In this document: positions 828 through 43,734 of the stretch, piece by piece | How the letters are laid out: every line of letters begins with the position of its first letter | Numbering within the stretch: the first letter of the stretch is position 1 | Source of the DNA: Clostridium saccharobutylicum DSM 13864 | Lineage (GTDB): Bacteria > Bacillota > Clostridia > Clostridiales > Clostridiaceae | NCBI RefSeq assembly: GCF_000473995.1 | Contig: NC_022571.1 | Location: 2,821,416 to 2,885,415 of the forward strand | Length of the DNA stretch: 64,000 nt | Reading direction: 5' to 3' | The notes under the pieces: generated by a model | Told to the model about the DNA's origin: nothing | The model's input: the letters and a program-made list of their open reading frames with translations, nothing else | The model's database searches: none | Program-made: the position numbers and the translations under genes

Positions 828-1009
828 TACATAAAACCTCCTTATACCATATTTATTCGTTGCAATAACCCGCTTTGTTTAATTTATAATTCAACTTAAT
901 TAAGTATAAATTCCGTGTCCAAAATTTATATAAATTTTCATTAAAATCTTAAAATCAGCACGCATTTTCTGCAATTATAATCCTAAAATTTATATATTTT
1001 TTATTGAAA

Positions 1010-8940: not shown

Positions 8941-10934
<1,994 letters not shown>

Positions 10935-13572: not shown

Positions 13573-14208
13573 TTACTCTTTTAACTTTAGTCCATTAGCT
13601 CCTGCTTTAAAACTTTTTATAAACAAATCAAAGACGCCTTTAATTAACTTTGCATTTTCAAGCTCATAATTTAACTGAAGTACTTCAATTGCTGCTTCTA
13701 TAGTACACAATTCTCCTTCTGATGCACCTCTTCTCAAGGTGTATTCTGACTTATGAATTGTATTTAACGAAACTCTTGGTAAATTCTTTAAATAATCACT
13801 CTTTCTCAATATCCTCCTAGCTTCTTTCCATGTACCATCCAAGATAATAAATGCAGGAATCTTTTCCGAACTTTTATATTCAAACTTGCTTTCTGATAAC
13901 TCATCATTCTCCATTGGAAATAGTATATATATTTCATACTCTTCACTATTAATGTATTCAATCAATTTTTCAGGAGCATTTGTTCTCTCCCATAGAATTA
14001 GCTCAGTTGATTCTGGATTAACAAGTTTCAGTAATCTAGCTGTATTTGAAGGCCTACTGAATTCTCTTTCCGTTGATAATATCCATATTTTTGTTTTAGT
14101 TTGTATCTTAGGCACAATATTGCAAATACAGTTTATTGTTGGTAGCCCACATTTATTGCAACTTTCGTACAATTTTGTAACTTGCTTAACTTTAAATTTA
14201 GAATCCAT
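13573..14208 (-). CDS. DTW-domain tRNA-uridine aminocarboxypropyltransferase
   Basis: 211 residues. The DTW domain is named for its D-x-T-W motif, seen here as LDGTWKEARR. Members of this family (TapT/YfiP) transfer the 3-amino-3-carboxypropyl group of SAM to uridine in tRNA, making acp3U. An N-terminal zinc-ribbon-like CNKCGLPTINCIC (cysteines near 17-29) is also typical. ATG 14208 lies within about 20 bases of the right end of the IS607 element, with AGCAGG as the only ribosome site, so its original promoter may have been displaced and expression may now depend on the element. Confidence 0.85.
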   Translation of the reverse strand: MDSKFKVKQVTKLYESCNKCGLPTINCICNIVPKIQTKTKIWILSTEREFSRPSNTARLLKLVNPESTELILWERTNAPEKLIEYINSEEYEIYILFPMENDELSESKFEYKSSEKIPAFIILDGTWKEARRILRKSDYLKNLPRVSLNTIHKSEYTLRRGASEGELCTIEAAIEVLQLNYELENAKLIKGVFDLFIKSFKAGANGLKLKE

Positions 14209-29633: not shown

Positions 29634-30854
29634 TTAATTCTTACTTTTGCTCAGTATATCTCCATCTTTAAGTTCATTATCACATTTTACAGTAAAAATC
29701 ATTTTAGCAGAAGGCGCACTTTCTATAGATTCACCATTTTCTTTCTTCATATCTTCAAGCTTTATAATCTTGTTATCTCCCTTTATCGCCAAAACTTCAA
29801 CAAAATCTCCATTGTAAACTTTATTTCTTTGTTCTATATTTGCAATATGAGATTCCTTATCATAATTCTTTACAACACCTACAATATCATAATTTCGTAT
29901 ATATGATGAGCTTTCGTAATTTTGTCTTATTTCTTTATCAAAATAAAAACCAGTTGTATATGGTCTATGACTAGGTTTTATAAGATTGTCCATCCATTTA
30001 GGATCAAACTTATAATTTTTAGGATCTTCTATGTATTTATCAATAGCTGCTCTGTACACCTTTACTACAGATGCAACATAATAAGAACTTTTCATTCTTC
30101 CTTCAATCTTAAGAGAATTTATACCAGATTCAATAAGCTCTGGAATATGTTCTATCATACATAAATCCTTTGAATTCATTAAATATACTCCATCAGAGCC
30201 TTCATTAATTTTATTGTAATCTCCTGTTTCCCCTTCTTCAAATAAATTATATTTATATCTACAAGGCTGTGAGCAAACTCCCCTATTAGAATCTCTTCCA
30301 TTCAAATAATTTGATAATAAACATTTCCCAGAATAGGCCATACACATAGATCCATGTACAAAAGCTTCTACATCGCAAGTTTCTGGTAATACATTTCTAA
30401 GTTCTCTTAAATCTTCCAAGCTCATTTCTCTTGCTGCTACAACTCTTTTCACTCCAACCTTATGCCAAAATAAAGCAGATTGATAATTTAAATTGCTAGC
30501 TTGAGTACTTAAATGTATTTCAAGGTTTGGCACAACTTCTCTTGCTATGCTTATAACTCCAGGATCAGCAATAAGTGCAGCATCAACACCAATATCATAT
30601 AATTCTCTAAGATATTCTTCTATTCCAAATAAATCCTCATTATGTGGAATTACATTTAATGTCACATGAATTTTTTTCCCTCTTGAATGTGCAAATTCAA
30701 CCCCTTCTTTTAAATCTTCTATTGTAAAATTATCCGCTCCTGCTCTTAGATTTAATTTGTCGCCTCCAAGATATACTGCGTCAGCACCAAAATTTATAGC
30801 TGTTTTAAGTTTTTCTAAATTTCCCGCTGGTGCTAGTAATTCAATTTTCTTCAT
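29634..30854 (-). CDS. U32-family protein (tRNA hydroxylation / RlhA-TrhP type)
   Basis: 406 residues. The U32 signature is complete: EAFVHGSMCMAYSGKCLLS, followed by CSQPCRYKYNLFEEGE, whose cysteines are thought to hold an Fe-S cluster. Once listed as collagenase-like peptidases, these proteins (TrhP/YrrO, RlhA) are now known to act with prephenate in ho5U formation on tRNA or hydroxylation of rRNA. The Clostridium copy most resembles the TrhP/YrrO type; the exact RNA target is inference. ATG 30854 follows AAGGAGTAAT. Confidence 0.88.
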   Translation of the reverse strand: MKKIELLAPAGNLEKLKTAINFGADAVYLGGDKLNLRAGADNFTIEDLKEGVEFAHSRGKKIHVTLNVIPHNEDLFGIEEYLRELYDIGVDAALIADPGVISIAREVVPNLEIHLSTQASNLNYQSALFWHKVGVKRVVAAREMSLEDLRELRNVLPETCDVEAFVHGSMCMAYSGKCLLSNYLNGRDSNRGVCSQPCRYKYNLFEEGETGDYNKINEGSDGVYLMNSKDLCMIEHIPELIESGINSLKIEGRMKSSYYVASVVKVYRAAIDKYIEDPKNYKFDPKWMDNLIKPSHRPYTTGFYFDKEIRQNYESSSYIRNYDIVGVVKNYDKESHIANIEQRNKVYNGDFVEVLAIKGDNKIIKLEDMKKENGESIESAPSAKMIFTVKCDNELKDGDILSKSKN

Positions 30855-30870
30855 ACTTTATTACTCCTTA

Positions 30871-31032
30871 TTATTTAAATAAATAATACTGCAATACATT
30901 TATAGCATTACAAGCATTAACGCAAACTGAAGCAAAACCAAATTCCTTTGCTTCTTTACAAAATTTTTTAACTTCCTCAGTCATTGCCTCTGGTTTTAAT
31001 ATTGTGTGATCTATATATTTAGCTATATTCAT
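30871..31032 (-). pseudogene. deoC: deoC 5' fragment (deoxyribose-phosphate aldolase N-terminus)
   Basis: ATG 31032 behind AAGGAGAAGG reads [40 protein letters not shown] and [17 protein letters not shown], 53 residues. The first 41 match the start of DeoC closely; the last dozen are unrelated, so the gene was cut by a deletion. The catalytic lysines are absent. The intact ribosome site means a short peptide may still be made, between the siroheme reductase and U32 genes. Confidence 0.85.
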
Positions 31033-31061: not shown

Positions 31062-32627
31062 TTATTCAAAATCAGAATATAAATCTGAATTTTCACTAAT
31101 GCTTTCTAATGTAGAATATTTATCTACTAATTCTCTTATTTCAATTTCTTTATTTCCTACAAATTGAACGAAATCCTCATATCCAGAATTAACTTTAAGC
31201 TGTGCTAATTCTTCAAGAAAGTTAGGTATTTTTTTAGCAGGAATTTCACCATATACTTGCCCAACCCTTGCTATATTAGGTCCCACTTTGCCATTAAACA
31301 TAATAGCGTATGTTGGTATCATTCCATCTTCTGTACGCTTTCTCTTTCCAATAAGACCAATAATGCCTTTTTGAGGTTGAGCACATGAATTTGGACATCC
31401 TGATATAAATAATTGTGGAAGAACATTTTTTATTTCAAAAGATTTATCCTTGAAAGTTTCAATAATTTTATTTAATAATCCTTGAGATTTATTAATTCCA
31501 AATTTACAAGTCTTAGCCCCAGCACAAACTACTGAACTATCTATGTTAAATATAGAAGAAAAACCGCATGTTATATCAATTAATCTTTGAGCATCATTTT
31601 CTTTTAAGTCTCTTACAAAAAATCCTTGTGTCATAGTTAACCTTAAGGATACTTTGTAATTTAAATTAGTTAAGAAATCTAATATAATATCTAAATTATC
31701 AGTAGTCACATTACCACTAATTGGATGAATATATACTGAATAGTGACCTTCTTGCTTTTGATTAATAATTCTATTTTGATATTTTTCATCCCATTGCTTT
31801 TGATTAATTTGTTTTATATCTTCTAAATCTTCATCTTTATAATCTATGTTAAGTTTTAAATCTTTTTCAGTTCTAACTTTATCAAGTTCAATTTTAAGCA
31901 CTTCTCTAAATTTTTCTTCACCTAATCTTTGGAGAACAAATCTTAATCTAGCTTTATGTCTATTTGTTCTATCTCCTTCTCTTTCAAAGATTTGTTTCAT
32001 AGCTTGTACATAATATAATGCATCATTATGATCAATAAAATCTTCAAGTTTTATTCCTACACTTGGATTTCTGCCAAGTCCACCAGCACCATAAACTTCA
32101 AATCCTCTTTTTCCATCAACTATTTTTGCTATAAATCCTATATCTGTTATAGTTGCATTAACAGTATCTTCTAAACTATTTGAAAAAGCTATTTTATACT
32201 TTCTAGGTAATTTAAGATTTTTAGGGTCATCCATCATATAATTTGCAACAGCTTTCATATATGGTGTAACATCAAAAATTTCATCTGTAGCCACACCTGA
32301 AAGAGGTGAACACGCAATATTTCTTACTCCATCTCCACCTGCTGCTTTAGTTGTTAATTCAGCTTTCATAAGTTCTTCTAATAAATTATTCAAGTCATCT
32401 GCTTTTACGGAATGAAATTGAATATCCTGTCTTGTTGTAAAACGTATTTGATTGCCTCCATATTTTTTTGCTATTTCACTTATTGCTTTCAGTTGCTTCA
32501 ATGTTATACATCCACCTGGAATTCTTGGTCTTATCATATAAGTTTCTATCAGCCTTTCTTTATAAATTCCCATAATTGCACTAAAAGATTTAAATTCCCA
32601 CAATTGCATTAAAAGACTTAAATTCAT
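31062..32627 (-). CDS. Siroheme-dependent sulfite/nitrite reductase
   Basis: 521 residues with the two ferredoxin-like/siroheme half-repeats. The siroheme-[4Fe-4S] ligands are in CAGAKTCKFG and SGCPNSCAQ, as in assimilatory ferredoxin-type sulfite and nitrite reductases, and the N-terminal half has MIRPRIPGGCITLKQLK and AAGGDGVRNIACSPLSG. It reduces sulfite to sulfide or nitrite to ammonia by six electrons; which one cannot be told. The N-terminus is altered by a 28-bp tandem duplication (32569-32624), and ATG 32627 lies in the shifted frame of the first unit. A MocR-type promoter module lies about 270 bases upstream. Confidence 0.9.
   Translation of the reverse strand: MNLSLLMQLWEFKSFSAIMGIYKERLIETYMIRPRIPGGCITLKQLKAISEIAKKYGGNQIRFTTRQDIQFHSVKADDLNNLLEELMKAELTTKAAGGDGVRNIACSPLSGVATDEIFDVTPYMKAVANYMMDDPKNLKLPRKYKIAFSNSLEDTVNATITDIGFIAKIVDGKRGFEVYGAGGLGRNPSVGIKLEDFIDHNDALYYVQAMKQIFEREGDRTNRHKARLRFVLQRLGEEKFREVLKIELDKVRTEKDLKLNIDYKDEDLEDIKQINQKQWDEKYQNRIINQKQEGHYSVYIHPISGNVTTDNLDIILDFLTNLNYKVSLRLTMTQGFFVRDLKENDAQRLIDITCGFSSIFNIDSSVVCAGAKTCKFGINKSQGLLNKIIETFKDKSFEIKNVLPQLFISGCPNSCAQPQKGIIGLIGKRKRTEDGMIPTYAIMFNGKVGPNIARVGQVYGEIPAKKIPNFLEELAQLKVNSGYEDFVQFVGNKEIEIRELVDKYSTLESISENSDLYSDFE
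32569..32624. repeat. 28-bp tandem duplication in the siroheme reductase start
   Basis: Two adjacent 28-base units (32597-32624 and 32569-32596) agree at 25 positions. Since 28 is not a multiple of three, the first unit is read in a different frame from the second. The second unit encodes EFKSFSAIMG in the native frame; the first would encode EFKSFNAIVG in the upstream frame. Confidence 0.85.
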
Positions 32628-32751
32628 CTATTTGTCTTTCCCTTCTATTTACTTTATGAATAACATAAATAAAAATATTTTTATCTCATGTGTAACCACT
32701 ATAATACTCTCTCTTCCTTAAGTTAAAGATAACAAAATGGTGCTATCATAG

Positions 32752-32854: not shown

Positions 32855-32915
32855 ATAGTAATATAGTATGAATTATATATCAACAAATAAAATTCCTATC
32901 TGTGCTAGTACAGAT
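32855..32915 (-). promoter_or_regulatory. MocR-type promoter module upstream of siroheme reductase
   Basis: Operator ATCTGTGCTAGTACAGAT (32898-32915, near-perfect palindrome), 14 bases, TTGATA -35 (32878-32883), 17 bases, TACTAT -10 (32855-32860), all on the minus strand. The same operator and spacing recur at 35047 and 41746. Confidence 0.65.
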
Positions 32916-32926
32916 GACATTTATAT

Positions 32927-33820
32927 TTATTTTGTTATCTGCATTCCTATTTTTTCTCCCATAAACACACTAGTTTCAAATCCATTCTGAGTTTGATATA
33001 TTATATCACTATCTATTTTTATCTTATTTTTTTGAAACATCATTATAATTGTAGAGCCTCCAAATTTAAAATATCCTTTTTCATCTCCCTTGTTGACATG
33101 TTCACTAACCCTATACGTTTGTACTATTGACCCAACACAGGTTGCACCAACTTCAATATATAATACACGTCCAAAGTTATCAGTATCAAAAATACTCCAT
33201 TGTCTTTCATTTCTGCAAAAAATCTCTGGCACTTTGCTTAAAGCTATTGGATTTACCGAATAATAATCTCCACTTATTTTAAAGCTTGTACTACATGCTC
33301 CACTATCTATAAAATGATATCTATGATAATCTGTAGGACAAAGTCTCAAAATCAAACAAGTTCCACCTAAAAATTCTTTGGAAGTATCTTTATTATTGAT
33401 GAGTTCATGAAACTTATATATACCACCTTTAATATGAACTATTTTATTTAAATCAATATTTTCATAAGCCATTAACTTCCCATCTCCAGGCGAAATTACT
33501 ACTTGCCTGTTTGTATCTATTGGTCTAAATTTATTTTTTAACTTTCTTGTAAAAAAATCATTAAAAGATTTAAACTCATCTATCTTCTTTTCAAACTCTG
33601 AAGCATCTATATTAAAATCATTAATAAATGAATCAATTTTTTTACAACTTACTTTACTATCACAAAAAAGCCCATAAGCTTTTGAAAAGAACTTTTTTTT
33701 AATTATTATTTCTAAGAAACTCATCCCAATAGGGGAGGAATAAATCCAATTAAGATACTTATCACCTGCAATTTTTTCAACTTCATATTTATTAACTTTT
33801 CTATTATAGTATTTAATCAT
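32927..33820 (-). CDS. psd: Phosphatidylserine decarboxylase proenzyme
   Basis: 297 residues. It converts phosphatidylserine to phosphatidylethanolamine at the membrane and matures by self-cleavage at a Gly-Ser bond, with the serine becoming a pyruvoyl group. The cleavage motif is [10 protein letters not shown] near residue 265 (GGST variant common in clostridia instead of LGST). [11 protein letters not shown] supplies the conserved histidines, and VISPGDGKL the aspartate. ATG 33820 begins 52 bases after hydE, so the two are probably co-transcribed. No phosphatidylserine synthase gene is in the window. Confidence 0.93.
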
Positions 33821-33872
33821 AATTAACCTCTCTTAGTTATATTAAACTTCTCTCACAATTAAAAACAATAAA

Positions 33873-34916
33873 TTATGCCATATTCCTTTTTTCTCTGCAT
33901 CCAAGTTCTTTTGAAACAGTTCTTCCTATAGAACTTATTTTTCCTGTAATACAATTCCAACATTGGTTTGGTGTCTCATTTACACATATTTTACCTGGAT
34001 AAATAGCATATAGTTTTCTATACTCACCTTCTGTAATATTAGGCATAACAACATTTGCTCCACTTGAAAGTGCAATTACTCTACCATTTCTATTTAAGCT
34101 TTCCATTGCTGTTGTAGCAGGTATATTTGCATCTGGTAATAAAAGCCTCACCAAAGCCATTACCTTTATGCTTATTTCAAAATTATCTACTTTATAATCT
34201 TTTAGCGGAGTATCTTCATTTGGAATAAACGGACCTAAGCCAATCATATCTGCATCTATTTCTTTAAAAAAGAGTATGTCATTAGCTAGTGATTCTATGC
34301 TTTGATTAGGTAGCCCTACTAAATTGCCAGTTCCTACTTCATAACCTAAATGTTTTAAATCTCTAAGACATCTTTTTCTTTCCTCATGCGTCATTCTTGG
34401 ATCTAATTCTTCATACAGTTTTTTATCAGTAGTTTCTATTCGCATTAAATATCTATCTGCTCCTGATTCCTTATAAGCTTTATATTCCTCAAAAGTCTTT
34501 TCGCCTAAACTTAAAGTTACTGCTACACCTAATTTCTTTATATTTGATATTATGTGCTTCATGATATCCACTGTATAATATAAATCTTCTCCCGACTGCA
34601 AGACGATGCTCTTATATCCATATCCAGCTGCTTTATGTGCCAAATCTATTATTTCGTAAGGCATTAACCTATATCGCTTAATGTTTGTATTAGACTTCCT
34701 CAGCCCACAATATAAACAATCGCGTCTGCATATATTAGAGAATTCAATAATTCCTCTTAAATGAACCTCATCCCCAACATATTTTTTTCTTATTCTGTCA
34801 GCTGCTTCAAAAAGTATATTATTTATACTATCATCTTTAAGTATAGATATTAATTCTTCCTCACTTAAACAATGATTTTTCTCAGCTTTTTCAATTAATT
34901 TTATATTCAAATTCAT
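33873..34916 (-). CDS. hydE: [FeFe]-hydrogenase maturase HydE (radical SAM)
   Basis: 347 residues. The radical SAM cluster motif is CRRDCLYCG, within FSNICRRDCLYCGLRKSN, and the C-terminal CWNCITGKISSIGRTVS is typical of HydE. HydE works with HydF and HydG to build the H-cluster diiron site. Biotin-synthase-like relatives are the main alternative, but the overall pattern favours HydE. ATG 34916 is 8 bases after GAGGG; two upstream in-frame starts overlap that site. No hydF or hydG in the window. A MocR-type module lies 90-150 bases upstream. Confidence 0.87.
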   Translation of the reverse strand: MNLNIKLIEKAEKNHCLSEEELISILKDDSINNILFEAADRIRKKYVGDEVHLRGIIEFSNICRRDCLYCGLRKSNTNIKRYRLMPYEIIDLAHKAAGYGYKSIVLQSGEDLYYTVDIMKHIISNIKKLGVAVTLSLGEKTFEEYKAYKESGADRYLMRIETTDKKLYEELDPRMTHEERKRCLRDLKHLGYEVGTGNLVGLPNQSIESLANDILFFKEIDADMIGLGPFIPNEDTPLKDYKVDNFEISIKVMALVRLLLPDANIPATTAMESLNRNGRVIALSSGANVVMPNITEGEYRKLYAIYPGKICVNETPNQCWNCITGKISSIGRTVSKELGCREKRNMA

Positions 34917-35003
34917 AAACATCACCCTCTTAAGTAAAACTAAGCCTACTGGCTATTTGAGCAAAGATAGTTTTTCACATAATATTCTCCATTTGCAATT
35001 TAT

Positions 35004-35064
35004 AATTTATATTATGACCATGTAAATATCAAGAAATAAAAACATCATCTGTGCTAGTATAAAA
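35004..35064 (-). promoter_or_regulatory. MocR-type promoter module upstream of hydE-psd
   Basis: Operator half-palindrome ATCTGTGCTAGTATAAAA (35047-35064), 14 bases, TTGATA -35 (35027-35032), 17 bases, TAAATT -10 (35004-35009). Spacing is identical to the other two copies; the second operator arm is degraded here. Confidence 0.6.
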
Positions 35065-35105
35065 ATTACCTATATATTATAAAAGGGTGTAAAATTAGTT
35101 AATCA

Positions 35106-35987
35106 CTAAGCATTTATAACTGAAATGAATTTCTTAACTAAATTTGTTTTTTCTTCATCTTTTCTTATACAAATAACAATCTCATTTTTAAGATTTATAT
35201 TATCTATATAGATTCTAGATAATCTTCCCATATCAATAAATTCTTTCGCTGCTATTGATGAGCAAAAATTCACACCATAACCAGACATAGATGCCCTAAG
35301 TGTTTCATGTAATCCATTAAATTCAAGTGCTATTTTAGGTAGTTCAATACCATAAGTATAACAAAGTGATTCCAAAATACTTCTTGCATAACTTCCTTTT
35401 TCTCTCATTATAAACGGTTCTAACATAATATCAGTTAAACTAACTTTTTTATTTGCATATTTATGCTTTGAAGATGCTACAAACCATAAATCATCATCCA
35501 TTATTTTAGTAATGTTAATTTCATCTATATATTTCTTTGCTCCACTACCTAAAATTGCAACATCCACCTCATATGACACAAGCTGATTAATAGCACTTTC
35601 TGTATTCAATGTATTAATTTCAATATTAATGTCTTTATTATTTTGTTTTAATTTAGTAACCCACATAGGTATTAAAAAATTAGTTGAGAGATAATTACCC
35701 GCTATTTTCAAAGTTCCATTTTTACCTTGTTTATAATTATCTATTATTGTTTCTATTCTATCTTCTATTTTAAAAATTGCATCTGCTTCTTTTACTAATT
35801 GCTCACCTATTTCACTTAAGTAAATCCCCCTACCTTTGGGTAAAAATAATATAACACCATTTTCTTTTTCAAATTTTTTAATTTGTGCTGTAATTGCTGG
35901 CTGACTAATTTTTAGTTGCTGTGCTGCAACTGTTACACTTCCTACTTTAGCTACCATATAAAATAATCTTAATGCATGTAAATTCAT
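35106..35987 (-). CDS. LysR-family regulator (CysL/CbbR-like)
   Basis: 293 residues. HTH: LHALRLFYMVAKVGSVTVAA then QQLKISQPAITAQIKKFE; effector domain follows with GNYLSTNFLIPMWVTKLK. It starts with ATG 35987 and is divergent from the phosphatase gene at 36121. Its targets are unknown; the neighbouring siroheme reductase and hydE might be considered, but they carry the MocR-type module instead. Confidence 0.9.
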   Translation of the reverse strand: MNLHALRLFYMVAKVGSVTVAAQQLKISQPAITAQIKKFEKENGVILFLPKGRGIYLSEIGEQLVKEADAIFKIEDRIETIIDNYKQGKNGTLKIAGNYLSTNFLIPMWVTKLKQNNKDINIEINTLNTESAINQLVSYEVDVAILGSGAKKYIDEINITKIMDDDLWFVASSKHKYANKKVSLTDIMLEPFIMREKGSYARSILESLCYTYGIELPKIALEFNGLHETLRASMSGYGVNFCSSIAAKEFIDMGRLSRIYIDNINLKNEIVICIRKDEEKTNLVKKFISVINA

Positions 35988-36120
35988 ATTTGCTCCTATT
36001 TATATATTTTATTTATGAATAGTATAATAACATATATTATACATATATATTCACTTTTGCTATACTCTTTATATAAATCATTGTCGGCATTATTTATAAT
36101 AAATTATTTAGGAGAAAAAT

Positions 36121-36738
36121 ATGATACAAACTACTATATATTTGATTAGACATGGACAAACAGAGTGGAATTTAGAAACACGAATGCAAGGACATAAGGA
36201 CTCACCTCTAACAAAGCTTGGCATAATTCAAGCCCAAAAATTACATGACAGACTTATAAATGAAAAATTTCATTTAATATACTCTAGTAAAAGCAAACGT
36301 GCTTATGATACAGCTAAAATTATACAAGGGAATCAAAACATTCCTTTTCATATATGCAAAGAATTAAAAGAAATTAACATGGGTGAATGGGAAGGCATGA
36401 AACAAATTGACATTATTAATAAATATTCTAAAGCTTGGAATAATTTTTGGAATAATCCTATAAAATATTCTCCAACTGGCGAAGGTGAATCTTATCCAAA
36501 CTTAAAAAACAGAGTTATACCTGCACTTGAAAATATTATTAATTCAAATCAAGGTAAAAATATAATAATTGTAACACATAGAATTACTTTAAAAGTTATA
36601 ATGTCATATTTTAAAAATCAAGACATGCATGAAATTTGTAATAACCCAGATATAGATCCAGCGAGTCTTTCTAAAATATGTATCTGCAATGGAACATATA
36701 AAATTCTATTACATGGAGATACATCTCATTACAAATAA
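36121..36738 (+). CDS. Histidine phosphatase family protein (phosphoglycerate mutase-like)
   Basis: 205 residues. The catalytic phospho-histidine motif is LIRHGQTEWN near the N-terminus, with the second His in IIVTHRITLK and the acid in ELKEINMGEWEG. Size and pattern fit the PhoE/CobC branch that dephosphorylates small metabolites (for example alpha-ribazole phosphate) rather than glycolytic mutase. ATG 36121 follows AGGAGAAAAAT. A terminator follows, so it is single. Confidence 0.88.
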   Translation: MIQTTIYLIRHGQTEWNLETRMQGHKDSPLTKLGIIQAQKLHDRLINEKFHLIYSSKSKRAYDTAKIIQGNQNIPFHICKELKEINMGEWEGMKQIDIINKYSKAWNNFWNNPIKYSPTGEGESYPNLKNRVIPALENIINSNQGKNIIIVTHRITLKVIMSYFKNQDMHEICNNPDIDPASLSKICICNGTYKILLHGDTSHYK

Positions 36739-36789
36739 AAAATATGATACTAAATATATAATTACTATCTTGTTGTGCTTAAGTTTTAC

Positions 36790-36830
36790 CAAAAATTCTT
36801 GTCTGTATTAGTACAGATAAGAATTTTTTT
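36790..36830 (+). terminator. Terminator after the phosphatase, holding a MocR-like palindrome
   Basis: AAAAATTCTTGTCTGTA pairs with TACAGATAAGAATTTTT. The apex TCTGTATTAGTACAGA resembles the MocR operator, perhaps by chance. Confidence 0.8.
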
Positions 36831-36871
36831 TATAGAAATAAATCAAATTGTAATTTAAAATATATATACGC

Positions 36872-36892
36872 CACCCCCAGGGGGTGTTTTTT
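36872..36892 (+). terminator. GC-rich palindrome with T-run: terminator or CsoR-like operator
   Basis: CACCCCC-A-GGGGGTG followed by seven T. By form it is a strong terminator, but it lies only 80 bases before the MFS gene and partly overlaps the place of a -35 box for a TATAAT at 36900-36905. Palindromes of C5-G5 type are also sites for CsoR-family repressors. Confidence 0.5.
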
Positions 36893-36975
36893 TAAACATT
36901 ATAATCTTTTAAAATTTCAAAAACAAATAAAAAGAATGATTAAATCTACTTAACAATATTTAACAGGAGGATAAA

Positions 36976-38184
36976 ATGAATTCAAATAATTTAGAACAAA
37001 AACAAAGAGAAAATTTAATAATGATATTAGCTGGAGCAACTTTCTTAATCTTTTACCAAGCTTTTATGGTAGCACCTATTATACCTAAGTTAGCAAATAT
37101 ATTTGGGGTATCAGCTGAGAATATTGGTTTGATTGTTCCAGCATACTTAATTCCTTATGGAATGACTACACTTATCTGGGGACCATTATCAGACCGCTTC
37201 GGAAGAAAAGCCATTATACTTTCTTCCTTTATATGCTTCATATTACTTACAGCTTTAACTGTCACTGCTTCTTCTGCAACATCAATGCTATATATTCGTA
37301 TATTAACAGGCATGGGAGCAAGTGGCGTAGTACCTATTTCTCTTGCTTTAATCGGTGATTTATTTCCATATACTGAACGAGGCAGGGCGCTTGGCTGGAT
37401 TTTTGGAGCTATGGCAGGAGGAATGGCCTTTGGTTCTACTGCTGGAGTAATCCTTGAACCGTTCATTACATGGCGTGGTCTTTTCCTTAGTGTTACTATT
37501 TTAGCTTCTATAGTTTTAATTATATTATTACCATACAGGAATTTCTTAAATACAAAAGTACAAACTGGTGAACACGCTAGTATCAAAAATGTAATATCAT
37601 CTTATTTTAGTATTCTTAATTCAGGAAGAAGTAAACAAACTTATGCTTATGTATTGATTAATGCAATATTCCATTCTGGTGTATATACTTGGCTTGGTTT
37701 ATATTTTGCAAAAAACTATGCTTTAAGTGAATTTGGTATTGGACTTGCTTTGATAGGTTATGGATTACCTGGTTTTTTACTTGGGCCAGTAATTGGTAGA
37801 CTAGCTGATCGCTTTGGAAGAAATCACTTAATTCCTGCTGGTCTTGCAATAGCTGGTTTATCAACTGTTGCACTTACAATTAATCTACCAGTTTATGTTG
37901 CTACATTCTTTGTAACTACTCTTTCTTTAGGATACGACATGACACAACCTCTTTTAGCTGGAATTGTAACAACTCTTAGTCCAAAACGTGGTGCAGCAAT
38001 GGGATTAAATGTATTTACATTATTCACAGGTATGGGACTTGGAAGTTTGGTATTTAGTTATTTTCTTAAGTTCGGTATTAATACAGCATTTATAGTATTT
38101 GGAACGATTGCCCTGATTTCTGCAATACTAGCTATTTATTTATTCCGCTTAGAAGTCCGACCTAAATCAGAAACTAATAGTTAA
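36976..38184 (+). CDS. MFS transporter, 12 helices
   Basis: 402 residues, inner membrane. Motif A is LIWGPLSDRFGRKAIILSSF, and repeats in the second half as LADRFGRNHLIPAGL, so both halves are complete. The N-terminal part IYQAFMVAPIIPKLAN-like region fits the Bcr/CflA-type drug exporters. ATG 36976 is behind AGGAGGATAAA. It is transcribed alone, ending at a palindromic terminator. Substrate unknown. Confidence 0.9.
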   Translation: MNSNNLEQKQRENLIMILAGATFLIFYQAFMVAPIIPKLANIFGVSAENIGLIVPAYLIPYGMTTLIWGPLSDRFGRKAIILSSFICFILLTALTVTASSATSMLYIRILTGMGASGVVPISLALIGDLFPYTERGRALGWIFGAMAGGMAFGSTAGVILEPFITWRGLFLSVTILASIVLIILLPYRNFLNTKVQTGEHASIKNVISSYFSILNSGRSKQTYAYVLINAIFHSGVYTWLGLYFAKNYALSEFGIGLALIGYGLPGFLLGPVIGRLADRFGRNHLIPAGLAIAGLSTVALTINLPVYVATFFVTTLSLGYDMTQPLLAGIVTTLSPKRGAAMGLNVFTLFTGMGLGSLVFSYFLKFGINTAFIVFGTIALISAILAIYLFRLEVRPKSETNS

Positions 38185-38202
38185 AAACTTCCTTATATAA
38201 TA

Positions 38203-38230
38203 TAAAAGACGCAGAATTCTGCGTCTTTTA
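38203..38230. terminator. Bidirectional terminator between MFS and nitrilase
   Basis: AAAAGACGCAGAATTCTGCGTCTTTT, a perfect palindrome between convergent genes. Confidence 0.9.
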
Positions 38231-38253
38231 CTTTTTATATGCAGTACTGAATT

Positions 38254-39237
38254 TTATTCTTCACTACCTACTGATAAATTAATTTCTTCATATGATATAA
38301 CTTTATTTTTACTCTCTCCAAACTTTCTAACAACTGGTGTAGGATTTTGATTAAAATTCATGCTTAAACTTTGATTAGAATAGTGACCTGCTGGATCAAT
38401 ATAATATTTAAAATCAATTATCTTCTCTACATCTATTTCTGCATAAGCTATTCCTTCTGTTTCTGCTGGAATCATTTCACTAATTGGTTCTCCATCTGGT
38501 CCATAGATACAAGTATGTCCACTTTTAAATGTATCAAAATATTCTCTTTGCTCTGGTGTTAAGCAAATCATATCCTTCATTTCTTCTGAGTAAATTGATG
38601 AAGTCATTAATACAAAAGTTTGAGTAGAAATTGCATAGTATCTGCTTGAAATTTCATCATCAAAATATCCTGGCCATGAAGCTACATGAACTTGTTCATT
38701 TTGTGAATTCATAGCTAAAAGATCTAATGGTACTTGATGTTCCCAACACATACATCCACCTAAATTACCGATTTCTGTTTCAAACACAGGCATTAGACTT
38801 CCACTTCCATCACCCCATATTAATCTTTCAGCAACAGATGCTCTCATCTTTCTATGTTTTCCAATCAAATCTCCATCTGGGTTAAACCATAATTGTGCTA
38901 AATATAATGAACCACCATCTTTTTCACTACAAGAAATACATACATAGGTCTTGTTCCTTTTTGCTGCTTCACTTATTTTTTGAATTGCTAAGCTTGGAAT
39001 TTCAACTGCATTTTTATATAATTCATGATAAAATTTTCTTGTATATTCTGGATGTCCAATAAATGCAAACCAAGGATAACCTGGAATGAATGCTTCTGGA
39101 AATGCTACTAACTTTGCTCCATTTGATGCTGCTTCATCAATTAATTTGCAAGACTTTTCAACTGTTGCATCTAAATCTAAATATACTGGTGCAGCTTGAA
39201 CTGCTGCTGCTTTGAATTTTGGGTATTGTTTTGACAT
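38254..39237 (-). CDS. Nitrilase family C-N hydrolase
   Basis: 327 residues. The catalytic triad is visible: Glu in VAFPEAFIPGYPWFAF, Lys in KHRKMRASVAE and Cys in GNLGGCMCWEHQVPL. The CWEH sequence and PGYPWF are features of true nitrilases and cyanide-type hydratases rather than amidases. It would turn an organic nitrile into acid and ammonia in the cytoplasm. ATG 39237 follows AAGGAGG. A terminator-like hairpin lies 27 bases upstream, between it and the LysR gene, so it either has its own promoter or is under attenuation. Confidence 0.92.
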   Translation of the reverse strand: MSKQYPKFKAAAVQAAPVYLDLDATVEKSCKLIDEAASNGAKLVAFPEAFIPGYPWFAFIGHPEYTRKFYHELYKNAVEIPSLAIQKISEAAKRNKTYVCISCSEKDGGSLYLAQLWFNPDGDLIGKHRKMRASVAERLIWGDGSGSLMPVFETEIGNLGGCMCWEHQVPLDLLAMNSQNEQVHVASWPGYFDDEISSRYYAISTQTFVLMTSSIYSEEMKDMICLTPEQREYFDTFKSGHTCIYGPDGEPISEMIPAETEGIAYAEIDVEKIIDFKYYIDPAGHYSNQSLSMNFNQNPTPVVRKFGESKNKVISYEEINLSVGSEE

Positions 39238-39263
39238 AATTGTATCCTCCTTAATTTAACCAA

Positions 39264-39306
39264 AAAAGACGTGTCAAGTATATTTCATTAATACTTAAGA
39301 CGCCTT
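39264..39306 (-). terminator. Terminator or attenuator just before nitrilase
   Basis: AAGGCGTCTTAAGTAT pairs imperfectly with ATACTTGACACGTCTT, followed by TTTTTGG on the minus strand. It ends 27 bases before the nitrilase ATG. No T-box GGAACCGCG-type element is visible upstream. Confidence 0.6.
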
Positions 39307-39445
39307 TGTCATTTATTTATTACTTATCACTTTTTATAAATTCTTACGTAAGTCATTTATTGATGTTAGTATATCATCTTAAATTTTACTTGGGTAGCAC
39401 CAGTAATTTTATATGCATAAACTATTGGTTAATAGCTTATACATA

Positions 39446-40330
39446 TTAAATATGATTTATCCAACTTAATATATAATCTTCAAATGTTTTGATTGTGCTT
39501 GATATATGCCCTTTTTTAGTTATCATACAAATTGTCCATTTTAAACTTTTATCTTCAAAAGGAATAGCCACAATGTCATTATTTTTAATATCTCTGCTTA
39601 TAAAATCCATAGTAATAGATATGCATTTATTTTCAGCACATAACTTATGACAAAGACTAAAACCACTTGTCACAAAAATAATATTAGGTTCTACTCCTGC
39701 TTGTTTAAAATGTTCATCTAAAATATGATATACTTTAAATACTTTACTTTCAATAACCATATCTACATTATCAACATCTTTATAAGTAATGACCTTTTTT
39801 TTACTTAGAGGATGATCCTTATGTACTAAAAGCTTAATATCAAATGTCTTAATAACTGTTTTATTAAACGCTGCATCATCTATAGGCTCAATGGCAAATC
39901 CTATATCTGCTTTATTTTCTTTAACATATTCATCAATATACATATCAGGATGTTCCTCATATTCTAATGATATATTAGTATTGTTTTTACTAAATTCTAA
40001 AATGCATTCAGGCTCTAATAATCTTATTACACCATAAGATGAAACTAATTTTATTTTTTCCTTATTAAATTTTGTTGCATTATACATTTCATATTTAAGT
40101 TTTTCTAAATCTTGAATAATTCTTATAGCATTTTTCTTCAATACTTCTCCCTGTTTCGTAAGAGACATTCCAATTGAAGAGCGTATAAATAGTATTACGC
40201 CTAGCTCTTTTTCTAATTTTTTTATTGATTTACTCAAACCTTGTGGTGAAATAAAAAGTTCTCTTGATGCTTTAGAAATACTCTTCATTTTACACACCTT
40301 TAAGAAATTAATTAATTCTTTAATATTCAT
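39446..40330 (-). CDS. LysR-family regulator
   Basis: 294 residues from ATG 40330, behind GGGGGAATT; a longer frame of five residues includes the ribosome site. HTH: LINFLKVCKMKSISKASREL and FISPQGLSKSIKKLEKELG. The effector domain has several cysteines (SLCHKLCAENKC) that could sense redox. It is upstream of and in line with the nitrilase gene and downstream of dapA, each separated by terminator hairpins. It may regulate nitrilase. Confidence 0.9.
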   Translation of the reverse strand: MNIKELINFLKVCKMKSISKASRELFISPQGLSKSIKKLEKELGVILFIRSSIGMSLTKQGEVLKKNAIRIIQDLEKLKYEMYNATKFNKEKIKLVSSYGVIRLLEPECILEFSKNNTNISLEYEEHPDMYIDEYVKENKADIGFAIEPIDDAAFNKTVIKTFDIKLLVHKDHPLSKKKVITYKDVDNVDMVIESKVFKVYHILDEHFKQAGVEPNIIFVTSGFSLCHKLCAENKCISITMDFISRDIKNNDIVAIPFEDKSLKWTICMITKKGHISSTIKTFEDYILSWINHI

Positions 40331-40410
40331 AATAATTCCCCCCATACTCTAAAAATAAACAAATAGAATAAATATTCACATTTACCAAACTTAAATTTTT
40401 ACATATAGAA

Positions 40411-40447
40411 AATGGCTGCCAAACATATTTCAGAATAGACAGCCATT
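40411..40447 (-). terminator. Terminator after dapA
   Basis: AATGGCTG pairs with CAGCCATT around a long AT-rich loop, between dapA and LysR. Confidence 0.65.
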
Positions 40448-40488
40448 GTCAAATATCGAATTATTTTATATAGGTTTTAATACTTTTT

Positions 40489-41373
40489 CTAAATTAATTT
40501 ATATTCTTTTAAACACTCTTTCAATGTTTCTAAATTTTCACCTTCCATCGCAAATAGAGGCATTCTTAAATCTCCAATATTGTATCCCATAAGTCCTAAA
40601 GCAGTCTTTACTGGTATAGGATTAACTTCAATAAATAAATTATTTATAAGTTTTAAATAATCCGTCTGCATTTTTGTACTCTCTTCTATCATTCCTTCAA
40701 AGTAAAGGCTACAAATTTCGTGTGCTTCCTTAGGCATAACATTTGATAATACAGAAATAACTCCTTTACCCCCTAATGATAATACGGGAACTATTTGATC
40801 ATCATTTCCAGAATAAATATCAAGATTATCTCCGCATAAAGCTTTGATTTTAGCTACTTGAGATAAATCGCCGCTAGATTCTTTTGTTGCAACTATTCTT
40901 GGATGCTTAGCTAATTCTACATATGTTTCTGGAAGAATATTAACCCCAGTTCTTGATGGAACATTATATAAAATCATTGGTACATTAACTCTGTCTGCTA
41001 TATATGTAAAATGTTTAACTAAACCACCTTGAGTTGCTTTATTATAGTAAGGTGTCACAACCAATATTCCATCTACTCCAACATTTTCAGCATATTTTGA
41101 AAGTTCAACAGCATACGCTGTATCATTTGAACCTGTGCCTGCTATTACAGGAATTCTCTTATTCACATATTTTACTGTAAATCTAATTGCTTCTTTGTGC
41201 TCTTCATTTGACATAGTTGATGATTCACCTGTAGTTCCAGCAATTACAATTGCATCTGTATCATTATCTATATTGAAATCTATCAGTCTTTTTAATTCTT
41301 CAAAATTAATTCCATTCTCATTAAAAGGTGTAACTATAGCAACTGCTGCACCAGTAAATATTGTTTTCTTCAT
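40489..41373 (-). CDS. dapA: 4-hydroxy-tetrahydrodipicolinate synthase
   Basis: 294 residues, aldolase-type TIM barrel. It condenses pyruvate with aspartate semialdehyde, the first step to lysine, cell-wall diaminopimelate and spore dipicolinate. Schiff-base Lys is in RIVATKESSGD, the Tyr of the proton relay in VVTPYYNKATQGG, and YNVPSRTGVN is family-typical. It is alone here, not with other dap genes, and preceded by a 38-codon ORF with a MocR-type module. DapA paralogues of unknown sugar-acid specificity exist, so the assignment is good but not certain. Confidence 0.88.
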   Translation of the reverse strand: MKKTIFTGAAVAIVTPFNENGINFEELKRLIDFNIDNDTDAIVIAGTTGESSTMSNEEHKEAIRFTVKYVNKRIPVIAGTGSNDTAYAVELSKYAENVGVDGILVVTPYYNKATQGGLVKHFTYIADRVNVPMILYNVPSRTGVNILPETYVELAKHPRIVATKESSGDLSQVAKIKALCGDNLDIYSGNDDQIVPVLSLGGKGVISVLSNVMPKEAHEICSLYFEGMIEESTKMQTDYLKLINNLFIEVNPIPVKTALGLMGYNIGDLRMPLFAMEGENLETLKECLKEYKLI

Positions 41374-41547
41374 AAAAACATGCCTCCAAATCGTTAATAC
41401 TTATATAATTGATTCATTTTATAAAGAAAAATTATAAATACAGAAAATTTTTCTCATTTTTTAAATAATTCAATCATTTTCATATATTTTATGCATATTT
41501 ATTCTAGTATTTTATATTTGAAAAATTCATATATAAAATGCCCCCTT

Positions 41548-41664
41548 TTATTTAATAACTTCACATACCTTATCTATAACCTCTTCTTCATACCCCAGTT
41601 TTTTCAACAAAATCCTTAATAAAACTTTATCTGAATTCAAATCATGAGCCTTCTTCTTTTCCAT
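41548..41664 (-). CDS. 38-residue ORF between MocR and dapA
   Basis: ATG 41664 follows AAGGGGGGGATG and reads MEKKKAHDLNSDKVLLRILL then KKLGYEEEVIDKVCEVIK-TAA. Composition is clearly protein-like: two predicted amphipathic helices with an excess of Lys and Glu. A MocR-type promoter module begins 39 bases upstream. It could be a regulatory or partner peptide, or the reduced remains of a gene. No family recognised. dapA starts 174 bases further on. Confidence 0.55.
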   Translation of the reverse strand: MEKKKAHDLNSDKVLLRILLKKLGYEEEVIDKVCEVIK

Positions 41665-41702
41665 AACACATCCCCCCCTTAACTAAAATTTACTATACAA
41701 TT

Positions 41703-41763
41703 ATGTTATTATAGTGTAATCTATATATCAACGAATAAAATAGTCATCTGTACTAGCACAATT
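41703..41763 (-). promoter_or_regulatory. MocR-type promoter module at the mocR/38-codon ORF divergence
   Basis: Operator ATCTGTACTAGCACAATT (41746-41763), 14 bases, TTGATA -35 (41726-41731), 17 bases, TAACAT -10 (41703-41708) on the minus strand. The operator ends about 20 bases before the MocR start, so it could also autoregulate that gene. Confidence 0.6.
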
Positions 41764-41781: not shown

Positions 41782-43119
41782 TTGTTAAAATATGAAGAAA
41801 TTATAGAATACATAAAAAATAATATAAAGTCTGAAAAACTCAATACTCCAAAAAAACTACCTTCTATTAGATCAATTAAAGAACTGTTTCAGTGTAGTAC
41901 AGGTACAGTTCTAAAAGCTTATGAAAAACTTGAGCAGGATCATATTATCTATTCAGTACCTAAAAGTGGATATTATATAGTTGATGATTTTCATAACCCA
42001 AATTCCTCTAAGCAGCCAATGGTAGATTTTTCAGCTGTAAATTTAAACTCTGAAACTTTTCCATATAAGAATTTTCAACATTGTTTAAATAAATCAATAG
42101 ATTTATACAAGGAAAAACTTTTTACATATTCTGATCCTAGAGGATTAAAATCTTTAATTAAGGTATTAACAAAACATATTCAAAATTATCAAATATTCAC
42201 AAAACCTGATAACATACTTATTACATCAAGCTCTCAACAAGCATTGAATATTTTATCAATCATGCCATTTCCAAATTGTAAATCTAATATTCTTGTTGAA
42301 CAGCCTACATATTATGGAATGATAAAATTCCTTGAACTTAATAACATCCCTACTCTAGGAATAAATAGAGACTTCAATGGAATAAATTTAGATGAATTAG
42401 AGAAGTTGTTTAAATACGGCAATATTAAATTTTTCTATAGTATACCTAGATTTCACAATCCAACTGGAACTTCATACAGTAAATTTGAAAAACAAGAGAT
42501 TATTAAATTAGCAGAAAAATATGATGTGTACATTGTCGAAGACGATATTTCAGCAGATTTAGATATAAATAAAAAGAATGACCCTCTATATTCCTATGAT
42601 ACTTCATCAAGGGTAATATACTTAAAAAGTTATTCAAAGATAATTATGCCAGGTTTAAGGGTTGCGGCTCTTATATTACCTGATTTACTTATTAATAATT
42701 TTTTAGAATATAAAAAATGGACTGATATGAACAGTCCAATACTATCTCAAGGAGCCTTAGAAATATACTTAAAGAACGGAATGTTTGATTCCCATATGAA
42801 ACAATTAGTTAGTCTATACAGTAGTCGTATCAATTGCTTAAAAAATATCTTATTAGAATGCGAATATCCAAATATACAATATAACATCCCTGAGTCTGGA
42901 TACTTTAGCTGTATTCATGTAAATGGTTCAGTAAATTATGATAAAATAATTACTTCACTATATCATAAGAATATAAGAATATTTGACACACGTGAATGTT
43001 TCCTTAAAGAATACAAATGTGATAATTATTTCAGAATTACTATAAGTGAAGTGAATGAGAAACAAATAAAGAAAAACATACCTATAATACTTCATTCTAT
43101 TCAAAAAAATTTGAATTAA
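41782..43119 (+). CDS. MocR-type GntR/aminotransferase regulator
   Basis: 445 residues. Residues 1-70 are a GntR winged helix (LPSIRSIKELFQCSTGTVLK), linked to a fold-type I aminotransferase domain with NPTG in FHNPTGTSYS, the Asp in IVEDDISADL and the PLP lysine in YSKIIMPGLR. MocR proteins sense PLP or an amino compound through this domain and usually act as activators. The start is TTG 41782, 8 bases after GGAGG; GTG 41773 overlaps that site. The operator described at 41746 lies directly upstream. Likely targets are the genes carrying the same module. Confidence 0.9.
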   Translation: MLKYEEIIEYIKNNIKSEKLNTPKKLPSIRSIKELFQCSTGTVLKAYEKLEQDHIIYSVPKSGYYIVDDFHNPNSSKQPMVDFSAVNLNSETFPYKNFQHCLNKSIDLYKEKLFTYSDPRGLKSLIKVLTKHIQNYQIFTKPDNILITSSSQQALNILSIMPFPNCKSNILVEQPTYYGMIKFLELNNIPTLGINRDFNGINLDELEKLFKYGNIKFFYSIPRFHNPTGTSYSKFEKQEIIKLAEKYDVYIVEDDISADLDINKKNDPLYSYDTSSRVIYLKSYSKIIMPGLRVAALILPDLLINNFLEYKKWTDMNSPILSQGALEIYLKNGMFDSHMKQLVSLYSSRINCLKNILLECEYPNIQYNIPESGYFSCIHVNGSVNYDKIITSLYHKNIRIFDTRECFLKEYKCDNYFRITISEVNEKQIKKNIPIILHSIQKNLN

Positions 43120-43249: not shown

Positions 43250-43297
43250 TTGACAAAAATAATATATGATATATAATTTAATTGATAACAATTATCA
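43250..43297 (+). promoter_or_regulatory. Strong promoter with Fur-family box at the start point
   Basis: TTGACA (43250-43255), 16 bases, TATAAT (43272-43277), then TGATAACAATTATCA (43283-43297), an almost perfect 7-1-7 inverted repeat of Fur/PerR/Zur type lying on the transcription start. Metal-bound repressor would block the promoter. Confidence 0.78.
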
Positions 43298-43362
43298 TTT
43301 TTGTTTAATTATTATCGATTATGCAATTTCAAATAAACATTAGATTCAAAGGAGATAACATT

Positions 43363-43734
43363 ATGTCAACATTTATGATTACATATTTTTTAAGCGATAC
43401 TTTAGGTCATGATCATGATCATGATGATTGTGGATGCAATGATGATCACTCAAATTCTCATGAGCATGAAAACTGCGGATGTGGTAAAGATGACACACAT
43501 TCACATAAAAACACCAATGTAGATATTAATATAATAGGAAAAATCAAATCTCTTGGTGCTTGGGCTCAATTTATGCCTGAAGGATTTTTGGTTAAAACAA
43601 ATTTATCTGCTCAAGATATTTTTAATGAAGTTAATTCTGTAACCAATAAAGGTGATATTGTGTTCGTAACAAAAGTAGATGCAAAATCTTCAGCATGTGC
43701 AAATTCAGCTGTCTTAGATTGGCTTTCAAACTAA
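43363..43734 (+). CDS. His/Cys-rich small protein under a Fur-type box
   Basis: 123 residues from ATG 43363, set by AAAGGAGAT; the upstream in-frame ATG at 43321 has no ribosome site. After a short N-terminus (MSTFMITYFLSDTLG) comes a metal-binding stretch HDHDHDDCGCNDDHSNSHEH and ENCGCGKDDTHSHK, with nine His and four Cys. The rest, NIIGKIKSLGAWAQFMPEGF and a beta-alpha pattern ending SAVLDWLSN, resembles no family I can name. It could store or deliver iron, zinc or nickel, or be a small carrier. It is transcribed alone from a very strong promoter. Confidence 0.8.
   Translation: MSTFMITYFLSDTLGHDHDHDDCGCNDDHSNSHEHENCGCGKDDTHSHKNTNVDINIIGKIKSLGAWAQFMPEGFLVKTNLSAQDIFNEVNSVTNKGDIVFVTKVDAKSSACANSAVLDWLSN

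Follow-up and report, generated by a model that had tools for sequence, protein, structure and literature searches.

A 64,000-nucleotide stretch of the Clostridium saccharobutylicum DSM 13864 genome (contig NC_022571.1, positions 2,821,416 to 2,885,415; hereafter the window) carries a gene for a MocR-type regulator and, between positions 32855 and 41763, three copies of one operator-promoter module placed ahead of short operons. Comparison with two Pseudomonas systems indicates that the module and its genes probably constitute a clostridial version of the Pseudomonas-type cyanide regulon, with new target genes. We consider it likely that the MocR protein is an activator, probably sensing cyanide through pyridoxal phosphate (PLP), that turns on detoxification together with spare isoenzymes. 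A first-pass annotation of the DNA had suggested that the three sites might define a new MocR regulon; the regulon is probably not of a wholly new kind, and the novelty would lie in its clostridial form and its targets.

The motif ATCTGTNCTAGNA occurs with zero mismatches at 32898, 35047 and 41746, and 32898-32915, being a perfect palindrome of 18 bp, gives a further match on the opposite strand at 32903. On the minus strand, all three sites show ACAGAT, exactly 14 bases, and then TTGATA (32883-32878, 35032-35027 and 41731-41726), with a hexamer 17 bases past it that reads TACTAT, TAAATT and TAACAT, respectively. The spacings given by the first-pass annotation are therefore exact in every case. 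That annotation also had the third site touching the MocR gene; 18 bases separate the two if the gene starts with the TTG at 41782. The elements are as follows.

32898..32915, no strand: MocR operator 1 (ATCTGTGCTAGTACAGAT), perfect palindrome, predicted from motif
35047..35064, no strand: MocR operator 2 (ATCTGTGCTAGTATAAAA), predicted from motif
41746..41763, no strand: MocR operator 3 (ATCTGTACTAGCACAATT), between mocR and a 38-codon open reading frame (ORF), predicted from motif
32855..32883, minus strand: promoter 1, TTGATA 32883-32878, N17, TACTAT 32860-32855; alternative hexamer TATATT 32865-32860
35004..35032, minus strand: promoter 2, TTGATA 35032-35027, N17, TAAATT 35009-35004
41703..41731, minus strand: promoter 3, TTGATA 41731-41726, N17, TAACAT 41708-41703; alternative hexamer TATAAT 41713-41708
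41782..43119, plus strand: MocR-type regulator with a GntR winged helix (PF00392) and a class I/II aminotransferase domain (PF00155), both above cut-off; probable TTG start

The short motif is unremarkable in the window once mismatches are allowed: with up to two of them there are 30 matches against 23.0 expected, a number reached by 11 of 100 shuffles. It is the composite that is special. A scan of the 5,107,814-base genome for CTAGNACAGAT-N14-TTGATA, the check proposed with the original observation, returned three perfect matches, the same three sites, all in the 32855-41763 stretch. No match was found at one mismatch and five at two, and at up to three mismatches on both strands there were 131 against 70 for a reversed control. 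The palindrome ATCTGTRCTAGYACAGAT at up to three mismatches occupies nine places in the genome (four for the reversed control). Four of the nine, with 0, 2, 2 and 3 mismatches and including the three best, lie within this 8.9-kb stretch, outside which the genome has none with fewer than three mismatches.

The module is conserved in related genomes (denoted here by G numbers, and the regions fetched from them by L numbers). Of 59 genomes scanned first, that of the window included, 19 had palindrome matches at up to two mismatches, and in G023, G030 and G032 the palindrome adjoins relatives of window genes; the layout of promoter 2 is repeated ahead of SerC-HydE-Psd in G023. A consensus module, CTAGYACAGATNNNNNWTTTAYTYNTTGATA, built from twelve sites in five genomes and searched at up to two mismatches, was found at 29 sites in 17 of 206 family genomes, compared with one for the reversed pattern, and was not found in 19 further genomes of the order. 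Among the candidates scored in each genome, a profile search for MocR relatives separated a top group of 19 proteins from 18 genomes (at least 687 bits) from the rest (at most 567 bits). The module is present in 15 of the 18 genomes of this clade and in 2 of the 188 others (Fisher p 4.7e-18). Leaving aside the five genomes from which the pattern was drawn, it is present in 10 of 13 clade genomes, and the remaining clade genomes, G116, G117 and G183, carry it beside mocR at 3-4 mismatches. This co-occurrence across the family bears out the earlier view that a fixed module, with its site upstream of the -35 box at several promoters, is tied to the MocR gene.

The window MocR scores 37.6 bits against PF00392 (cut-off 27) and 87.3 bits against PF00155 (cut-off 19.7). 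Lys286, which we take from its motif to be the PLP-binding lysine, is invariant in 20 of 20 aligned proteins, as are Tyr219, Asn226, Asp254 and Arg293. Of the 19 flanking copies that could be measured, 17, from 16 genomes including that of the window, have 26 bp between the C of CTAG and the start codon of mocR; the exceptions are 28 bp (G122) and 136 bp (G146). A tree of 18 clade proteins and two outgroup proteins, from which the broken MocR copies of G120 (L126), G122 (L127) and G099 were omitted, resolves two groups. Group 1 comprises 12 proteins with mostly CTAG-type operators (support 95/93), and group 2 comprises 6 proteins tied to NIT4-type nitrilases (support 93/92, just below the mark of the tool). 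At mocR, 10 of the 12 group 1 operators have CTAG, G118 having ATAG and G185 CTAT; the NIT4-linked operators read CTATAACA in 5 of 6, and the sixth (G118), read by eye, is the same. As judged from these sequences, the two MocR groups match two operator types, with two exceptions. Plasmid-borne MocR relatives reach at most 46% identity. We also note that the MocR copies in G120 and G122 are broken despite an adjoining module (L126 8596-9926; L127 10112-10402), that both genomes retain a second, NIT4-linked MocR, and that the G099 copy (L120 10023-11347) looks interrupted near its start.

Alignment of 32 distinct copies (35 sites less the window's own 36808, G023 8665 and one duplicate row) reveals that the conserved part is longer than had first been seen. 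The TTTTATTT tract between operator and TTGATA is conserved even where no mocR adjoins, and an ACTATA block is conserved ahead of the distal hexamer. The -10-like element placed 17 bases on in the first-pass annotation is upheld in so far as TANNNT follows TTGATA at that distance in 31 of 32 copies. Almost as strongly conserved is a TATAAT-like block at 12 bases from TTGATA, with T, A, T and A in 31, 31, 30 and 29 of 32 copies, followed by A in 21 and T in 31, so that either hexamer may be the -10 element. Reckoned from predicted rather than mapped starts, the centre of the palindrome would lie near -58.5 with the distal hexamer as -10 element and near -53 with the proximal one. The operator stands wholly upstream of TTGATA, which favours activation; the operator 18 bases before the start codon of the window mocR favours negative autoregulation.

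More distant loci carry the operator in a barer form. At limits of three mismatches to the short composite and four to the long one, no composite was found beside mocR in L081-L089 (MocR 44-53% identical), L097 (42-43%) or L160-L161 (52-53%). In G080 (L081 12602-12619) and G027 (L082 11539-11556), the bare palindrome, with two mismatches and no TTGATA module, immediately precedes a MocR gene of 53% identity. In L097 of Sporosarcina globispora the palindrome ATCTGTACCGATACAGAC (9966-9983, four mismatches) lies directly before the start of the 42-43% identical relative. The operator type may thus reach beyond clostridia, and the bare palindromes in G027, G080 and L097 suggest that the operator alone may predate the module. 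Two genomes, G085 and G103, have the module and no MocR of the clade; it precedes a U32 gene in G085 (L117 8873) and lies near an ABC-transporter remnant in G103 (L122 8229).

With operon membership judged by strand and spacing, the module-led units in the window are NirA-deoC'-U32, HydE-Psd, and the 38-codon ORF with dapA further on. The genes concerned, together with a nearby nitrilase gene, are listed below.

29634..30854, minus strand: U32 family protein (the genome has several), PF01136 and PF16325; best NCBIfam model TrhP, below cut-off
30871..31032, minus strand: 5' fragment of deoC, named by eye from sequence; whole in G025, G030, G032 and G106
31062..32627, minus strand: NirA-like siroheme nitrite/sulfite reductase, PF01077 and PF03460, under the cut-offs of all NCBIfam models
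32927..33820, minus strand: psd (phosphatidylserine decarboxylase, a pyruvoyl enzyme), second copy, NF001941 above cut-off, PF02666
33873..34916, minus strand: hydE (radical SAM maturase of [FeFe] hydrogenase), second copy, TIGR03956 above cut-off
38254..39237, minus strand: cyanide dihydratase-like nitrilase, phmmer match to PDB 8c5i (676 bits, E 6.7e-203, query residues 2-324)
40489..41373, minus strand: dapA (4-hydroxy-tetrahydrodipicolinate synthase), TIGR00674 above cut-off
41548..41664, minus strand: 38-codon ORF, first gene past module 3, no assigned function, relatives in G023, G030 and G032

The 38-codon ORF noticed in the first pass has conserved counterparts in G023, G030 and G032, the G030 copy carrying an in-frame stop. 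Its proportions of synonymous differences (pS) against G023 and G032 are 0.63 and 0.48 and of nonsynonymous differences (pN) 0.21 and 0.22; a Pfam search matched no family. dapA lies 174 bp beyond the ORF, no terminator-like site was found between the two, and dapA may be read from module 3 or from its own promoter.

Target frequencies in the clade were taken from a map of the fetched regions and are given out of 18 genomes. U32 is the most frequent target (14), followed by NirA (7, at least two damaged), a class I aminotransferase (7), NIT4-type nitrilase (7; in G118 beside the second MocR copy) and Eda (5). HydE, DeoC (plus the fragment in the window), a second carbon-nitrogen hydrolase (a fragment in G122) and the 38-codon ORF are each found in 4, SerC (one truncated) and Psd in 2, and DapA, ArgD, HemB and HydA in 1 each. 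NCBIfam cut-offs are exceeded by HydE, Psd, DapA, Eda, ArgD and HemB. For the nitrilases, NirA, U32 and the aminotransferase, scores fall below the cut-offs of specific models and the names come from Pfam or weaker similarity, and SerC, DeoC, an ABC exporter and an isomerase were named by eye from sequence. Altogether 20 target families were counted. Genes that lie further downstream or whose linkage is doubtful do not enter this number: MATE- and MFS-type transporters (G096, G099, G100), a RarD-like gene (G032), a gene of DUF1275 type in G030, genes resembling CsoR and CopA in G025, a fragment of a radical SAM gene in G122, and the exporters that follow the weak sites at 36808 (window) and 8665 (G023).

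The genome holds three other DapA-family genes (81, 59 and 33% identical to the window dapA; four in all), another HydE (66%), another Psd (60%) and further U32 genes, so that all four of the targets tested are extra copies; none of the other copies has the exact composite module in the genome scan. Eight of the 20 target families, namely class I aminotransferase, SerC, ArgD, DapA, Eda, DeoC, HemB and Psd, depend on PLP, a lysine Schiff base or a pyruvoyl group; siroheme or iron-sulfur cofactors occur in other targets. Lysine Schiff-base, pyruvoyl and iron-sulfur groups are subject to attack by cyanide. Cyanide attack on PLP (PMC10790758) and on siroheme (PMC12688703) has been described as well.

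Two regulatory systems of Pseudomonas offer parallels. In P. aeruginosa, the MocR protein MpaR (PA4132) is required for cyanide-dependent expression of ccoN4, and its motif ATCTGAT lies 61-62 bp ahead of three mapped starts, one of them that of nirA, a probable MpaR target (PMC10790758); NirA of this organism is described as a cyanide-tolerant siroheme nitrite reductase (PMC12688703). The cyanide-inducible MpaR/PA4129-PA4134 cluster resembles the clostridial system in having a MocR-type activator (predicted as such here), several promoters around the regulator's own gene, a palindromic motif and a NirA-type siroheme reductase among the probable targets. The MpaR targets include the oxidase genes ccoN4-ccoQ4 of aerobic respiration, in contrast to HydE, HydA, U32, DeoC, Psd, the nitrilases and the 38-residue protein here, and the clostridial operator is a longer, CTAG-centred palindrome whereas that of MpaR is short.

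In P. pseudoalcaligenes CECT5344, mocR (BN5_1899) is divergent from the cyanide-resistance cio cluster. PMC8567248 lists CysI3, CioC, CioA, SerC, HisC, ArgD, DapA, MetF, CysM, MaeB and Nit4, and reports most of these proteins only, or in far greater amounts, in cells grown with a cyanide residue. A KDPG/KHG aldolase carries the locus number preceding that of BN5_1899 (PMC5333837). The cio cluster and this neighbour gene together share six families with the clade targets (siroheme reductase, SerC, ArgD, DapA, Nit4 and Eda), and both include a class I aminotransferase (HisC in cio). The overlap of six of 10 cio families with the 20 target families has a hypergeometric probability of 6e-9 to 8e-12, with backgrounds of 1000-3000 families guessed, families picked by us and a comparison chosen after the target list had been seen; the count of 10 omits the oxidase, CioC, a transporter and unnamed proteins. 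The two sets also differ. The siroheme reductases (CysI3 in cio) belong to different subfamilies, the clostridial targets are distributed among several short operons, each with its own module, and CioA, CioC, CysM, MetF and MaeB are listed for cio (PMC8567248, PMC6989483) and are not among the target families counted here. The cio MocR is regarded as a repressor, whereas the promoter layout here suggests activation.

The window gene at 38254-39237, located 2.5 kb from mocR, encodes a protein that aligns over residues 2-324 with CynD (PDB 8c5i, 9odt, 8p4i and 9er3) and keeps the FPEAF, KHRKMR and MCWEH stretches in an alignment to solved structures; its NCBIfam nitrilase score is below the model cut-off. 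By position, this predicted CynD-like gene sits inside the MocR cluster, with a LysR gene (39446-40345) upstream. A NIT4-type nitrilase gene stands beside MocR in G116, G117, G118, G120, G122 and G183; in G023 such a gene is found under a module. The closest solved structure to the G183 nitrilase, which is the one NIT4-type protein compared with structures, is NIT4. CynD/NIT4 nitrilases at E 1e-30 occur in 8 of 18 clade genomes and in 13 of 188 others (p 7e-5). As a separate observation, G152, a genome without this MocR clade, encodes a protein 92% identical to the cyanide dihydratase-like protein of the window (L176 1501-2481).

In the mechanism that we propose, MocR (41782-43119) would bind the CTAG-centred palindrome ~53-59 bp before the transcription start and activate the promoter, and would probably limit its own expression from the operator next to its start codon; it might both activate and repress. 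The signal would most likely be cyanide, or a cyanide adduct of PLP in the aminotransferase-like domain. Sensing through a PLP adduct is carried over from MpaR, for which Smiley and co-workers propose cyanide-modified PLP as the active ligand (PMC10790758). Switched on would be nitrilases acting on cyanide or cyanoalanine, together with spare PLP, Schiff-base and pyruvoyl enzymes, the siroheme reductase and hydrogenase genes that cyanide disables, the spare copies presumably being cyanide-tolerant. A more speculative extension, which we find rather unlikely, treats the PLP imine of the anaerobe's MocR as a decoy that is trapped by cyanide, the trapped form inducing spare imine and carbonyl enzymes. 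HydE and HydA would be included since assembly of the [FeFe]-hydrogenase cofactor makes cyanide, so that the regulon would guard against home-made cyanide.

Other explanations of the target list were weighed. A general sensor of carbonyl and imine poisons (hydroxylamine, hydrazines, sulfite, reactive amines or aldehydes), with cyanide as one of them, would accommodate the eight families with PLP, Schiff-base or pyruvoyl groups, and NirA-type enzymes can reduce sulfite or hydroxylamine. It seems unlikely to us, since the NIT4-type nitrilases in 7 of 18 clade genomes and the cyanide dihydratase-like protein in the window point to a C-N triple bond, and the known Pseudomonas parallels respond to cyanide. 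The best NCBIfam model for the window MocR is PdxR (272.9 bits, under the cut-off of 320; GabR scores 162 against a cut-off of 600). Published MocR regulons mostly concern PLP metabolism, with DapA-family genes in some, PdxQ regulons included, and PdxR, GabR and other MocR regulons share with this system the protein architecture and repeated or palindromic operators (PMC5320631). A PdxR-like vitamin B6 regulator, with PLP-dependent metabolism adjusted by MocR to the level of PLP that it senses, is nevertheless quite improbable. Nitrilases, NirA, HydE, HydA, Psd and DeoC are not B6 genes, and the system differs from PdxR and GabR in that no gene of B6 synthesis or transport was noticed among the nameable module-led genes, with no search aimed at them, nor any gene for γ-aminobutyric acid (GABA) among the targets. 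The target set, which the first-pass annotation found unexpected for a PLP-binding regulator, is so only with vitamin B6 in mind; the cyanide genes linked to MocR in two Pseudomonas species form a similar set.

The module leads from MocR directly to a NIT4-type gene in G116, G117, G183, G120 and G122, an arrangement that would suit the use of nitriles or cyanoalanine as a nitrogen source rather than cyanide defence. We hold this to be very unlikely, given that no part in nitrile use is evident for spare DapA, SerC, Eda, HydE, Psd and NirA, and that in P. pseudoalcaligenes 3-cyanoalanine induced no cio protein except HisC while a cyanide residue induced most (PMC8567248). The module could also be the conserved promoter of another regulator, standing beside mocR by common descent only; G085 and G103, which lack a MocR of the clade, and the LysR genes nearby in the window are in keeping with this. 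Such an origin is extremely improbable, as the operator type largely tracks the MocR group and the distance to mocR is kept in 17 copies from 16 genomes while the module also precedes unrelated genes there.

Several observations weigh against a cyanide-responsive MocR activator. The cyanide dihydratase-like gene of the window has no module, and it was rejected as a direct target: modules at up to four mismatches in the window comprise only the three sites and 36808. At E 1e-30, 10 of 18 clade genomes have no CynD/NIT4 match, and 13 of the 21 genomes with such nitrilases are without this MocR clade. Some modules lead genes with no evident cyanide link, such as a cupin with an ABC exporter (G094) and an alcohol dehydrogenase (G106), and those of G103 and of G118 at 13593 have no same-strand gene start within 450 bp. 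We know of no link between cyanide and U32. Both NirA and deoC have a damaged appearance in the window: compared with its relatives, which begin further upstream, the NirA-like gene seems to be rearranged at its N terminus (32561-32640), with an FKSF(N/S)AI stretch present twice in different frames. The profile search scored at most eight candidates per genome, and clade members may have been missed. MpaR and the cio MocR were likened to the clostridial system by their targets and descriptions. Loss of MocR in P. pseudoalcaligenes led to constitutive cio proteins, suggesting repression (unpublished data cited in PMC8567248).

In open-licence papers, no cyanide-sensing regulator of a strict anaerobe was found, the two parallels found being both from Pseudomonas, and nothing relevant to cyanide regulation by MocR in Clostridium. 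If the cyanide-sensing MocR is correct, the regulon would name enzymes that anaerobes replace under cyanide, including Psd, HydE, HydA, DeoC, HemB and U32; DapA, SerC, ArgD and NirA of that set are already known from Pseudomonas. It would also give a testable form to the view that in anaerobes cyanide does its damage through trapped imines and iron cofactors and not through a block of respiration, and it would suggest that some MocR proteins filed as B6 regulators sense PLP-reactive compounds.

A fourth palindrome in the window (36801-36818), absent from the first-pass annotation, was for now rejected as a further module. TATAGA replaces TTGATA, and the site forms a terminator-like hairpin with a 17-bp stem running into eight T (-18.1 kcal/mol), with a second terminator-like hairpin after it at 36872-36886; by its appearance it belongs to the 3' end of the gene at 36121-36738. 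Despite this terminator look, G023 keeps a similar palindrome at the matching place. In both genomes, the two-mismatch palindrome lies in a terminator-like hairpin (window 36801-36818; L078 8655-8672) that follows a phosphoglycerate-mutase-family gene; it precedes an MFS exporter gene in the window, and the G023 copy is on the side of an ABC exporter. The palindrome may be a terminator doubling as an operator. No known RNA leader was found at the Rfam cut-off between 26000 and 46000. Within 43250-43734, a perfect TTGACA-N16-TATAAT precedes a small protein with a His/Asp/Cys-rich N-terminal part, as does a stretch that we take to resemble a Fur box.

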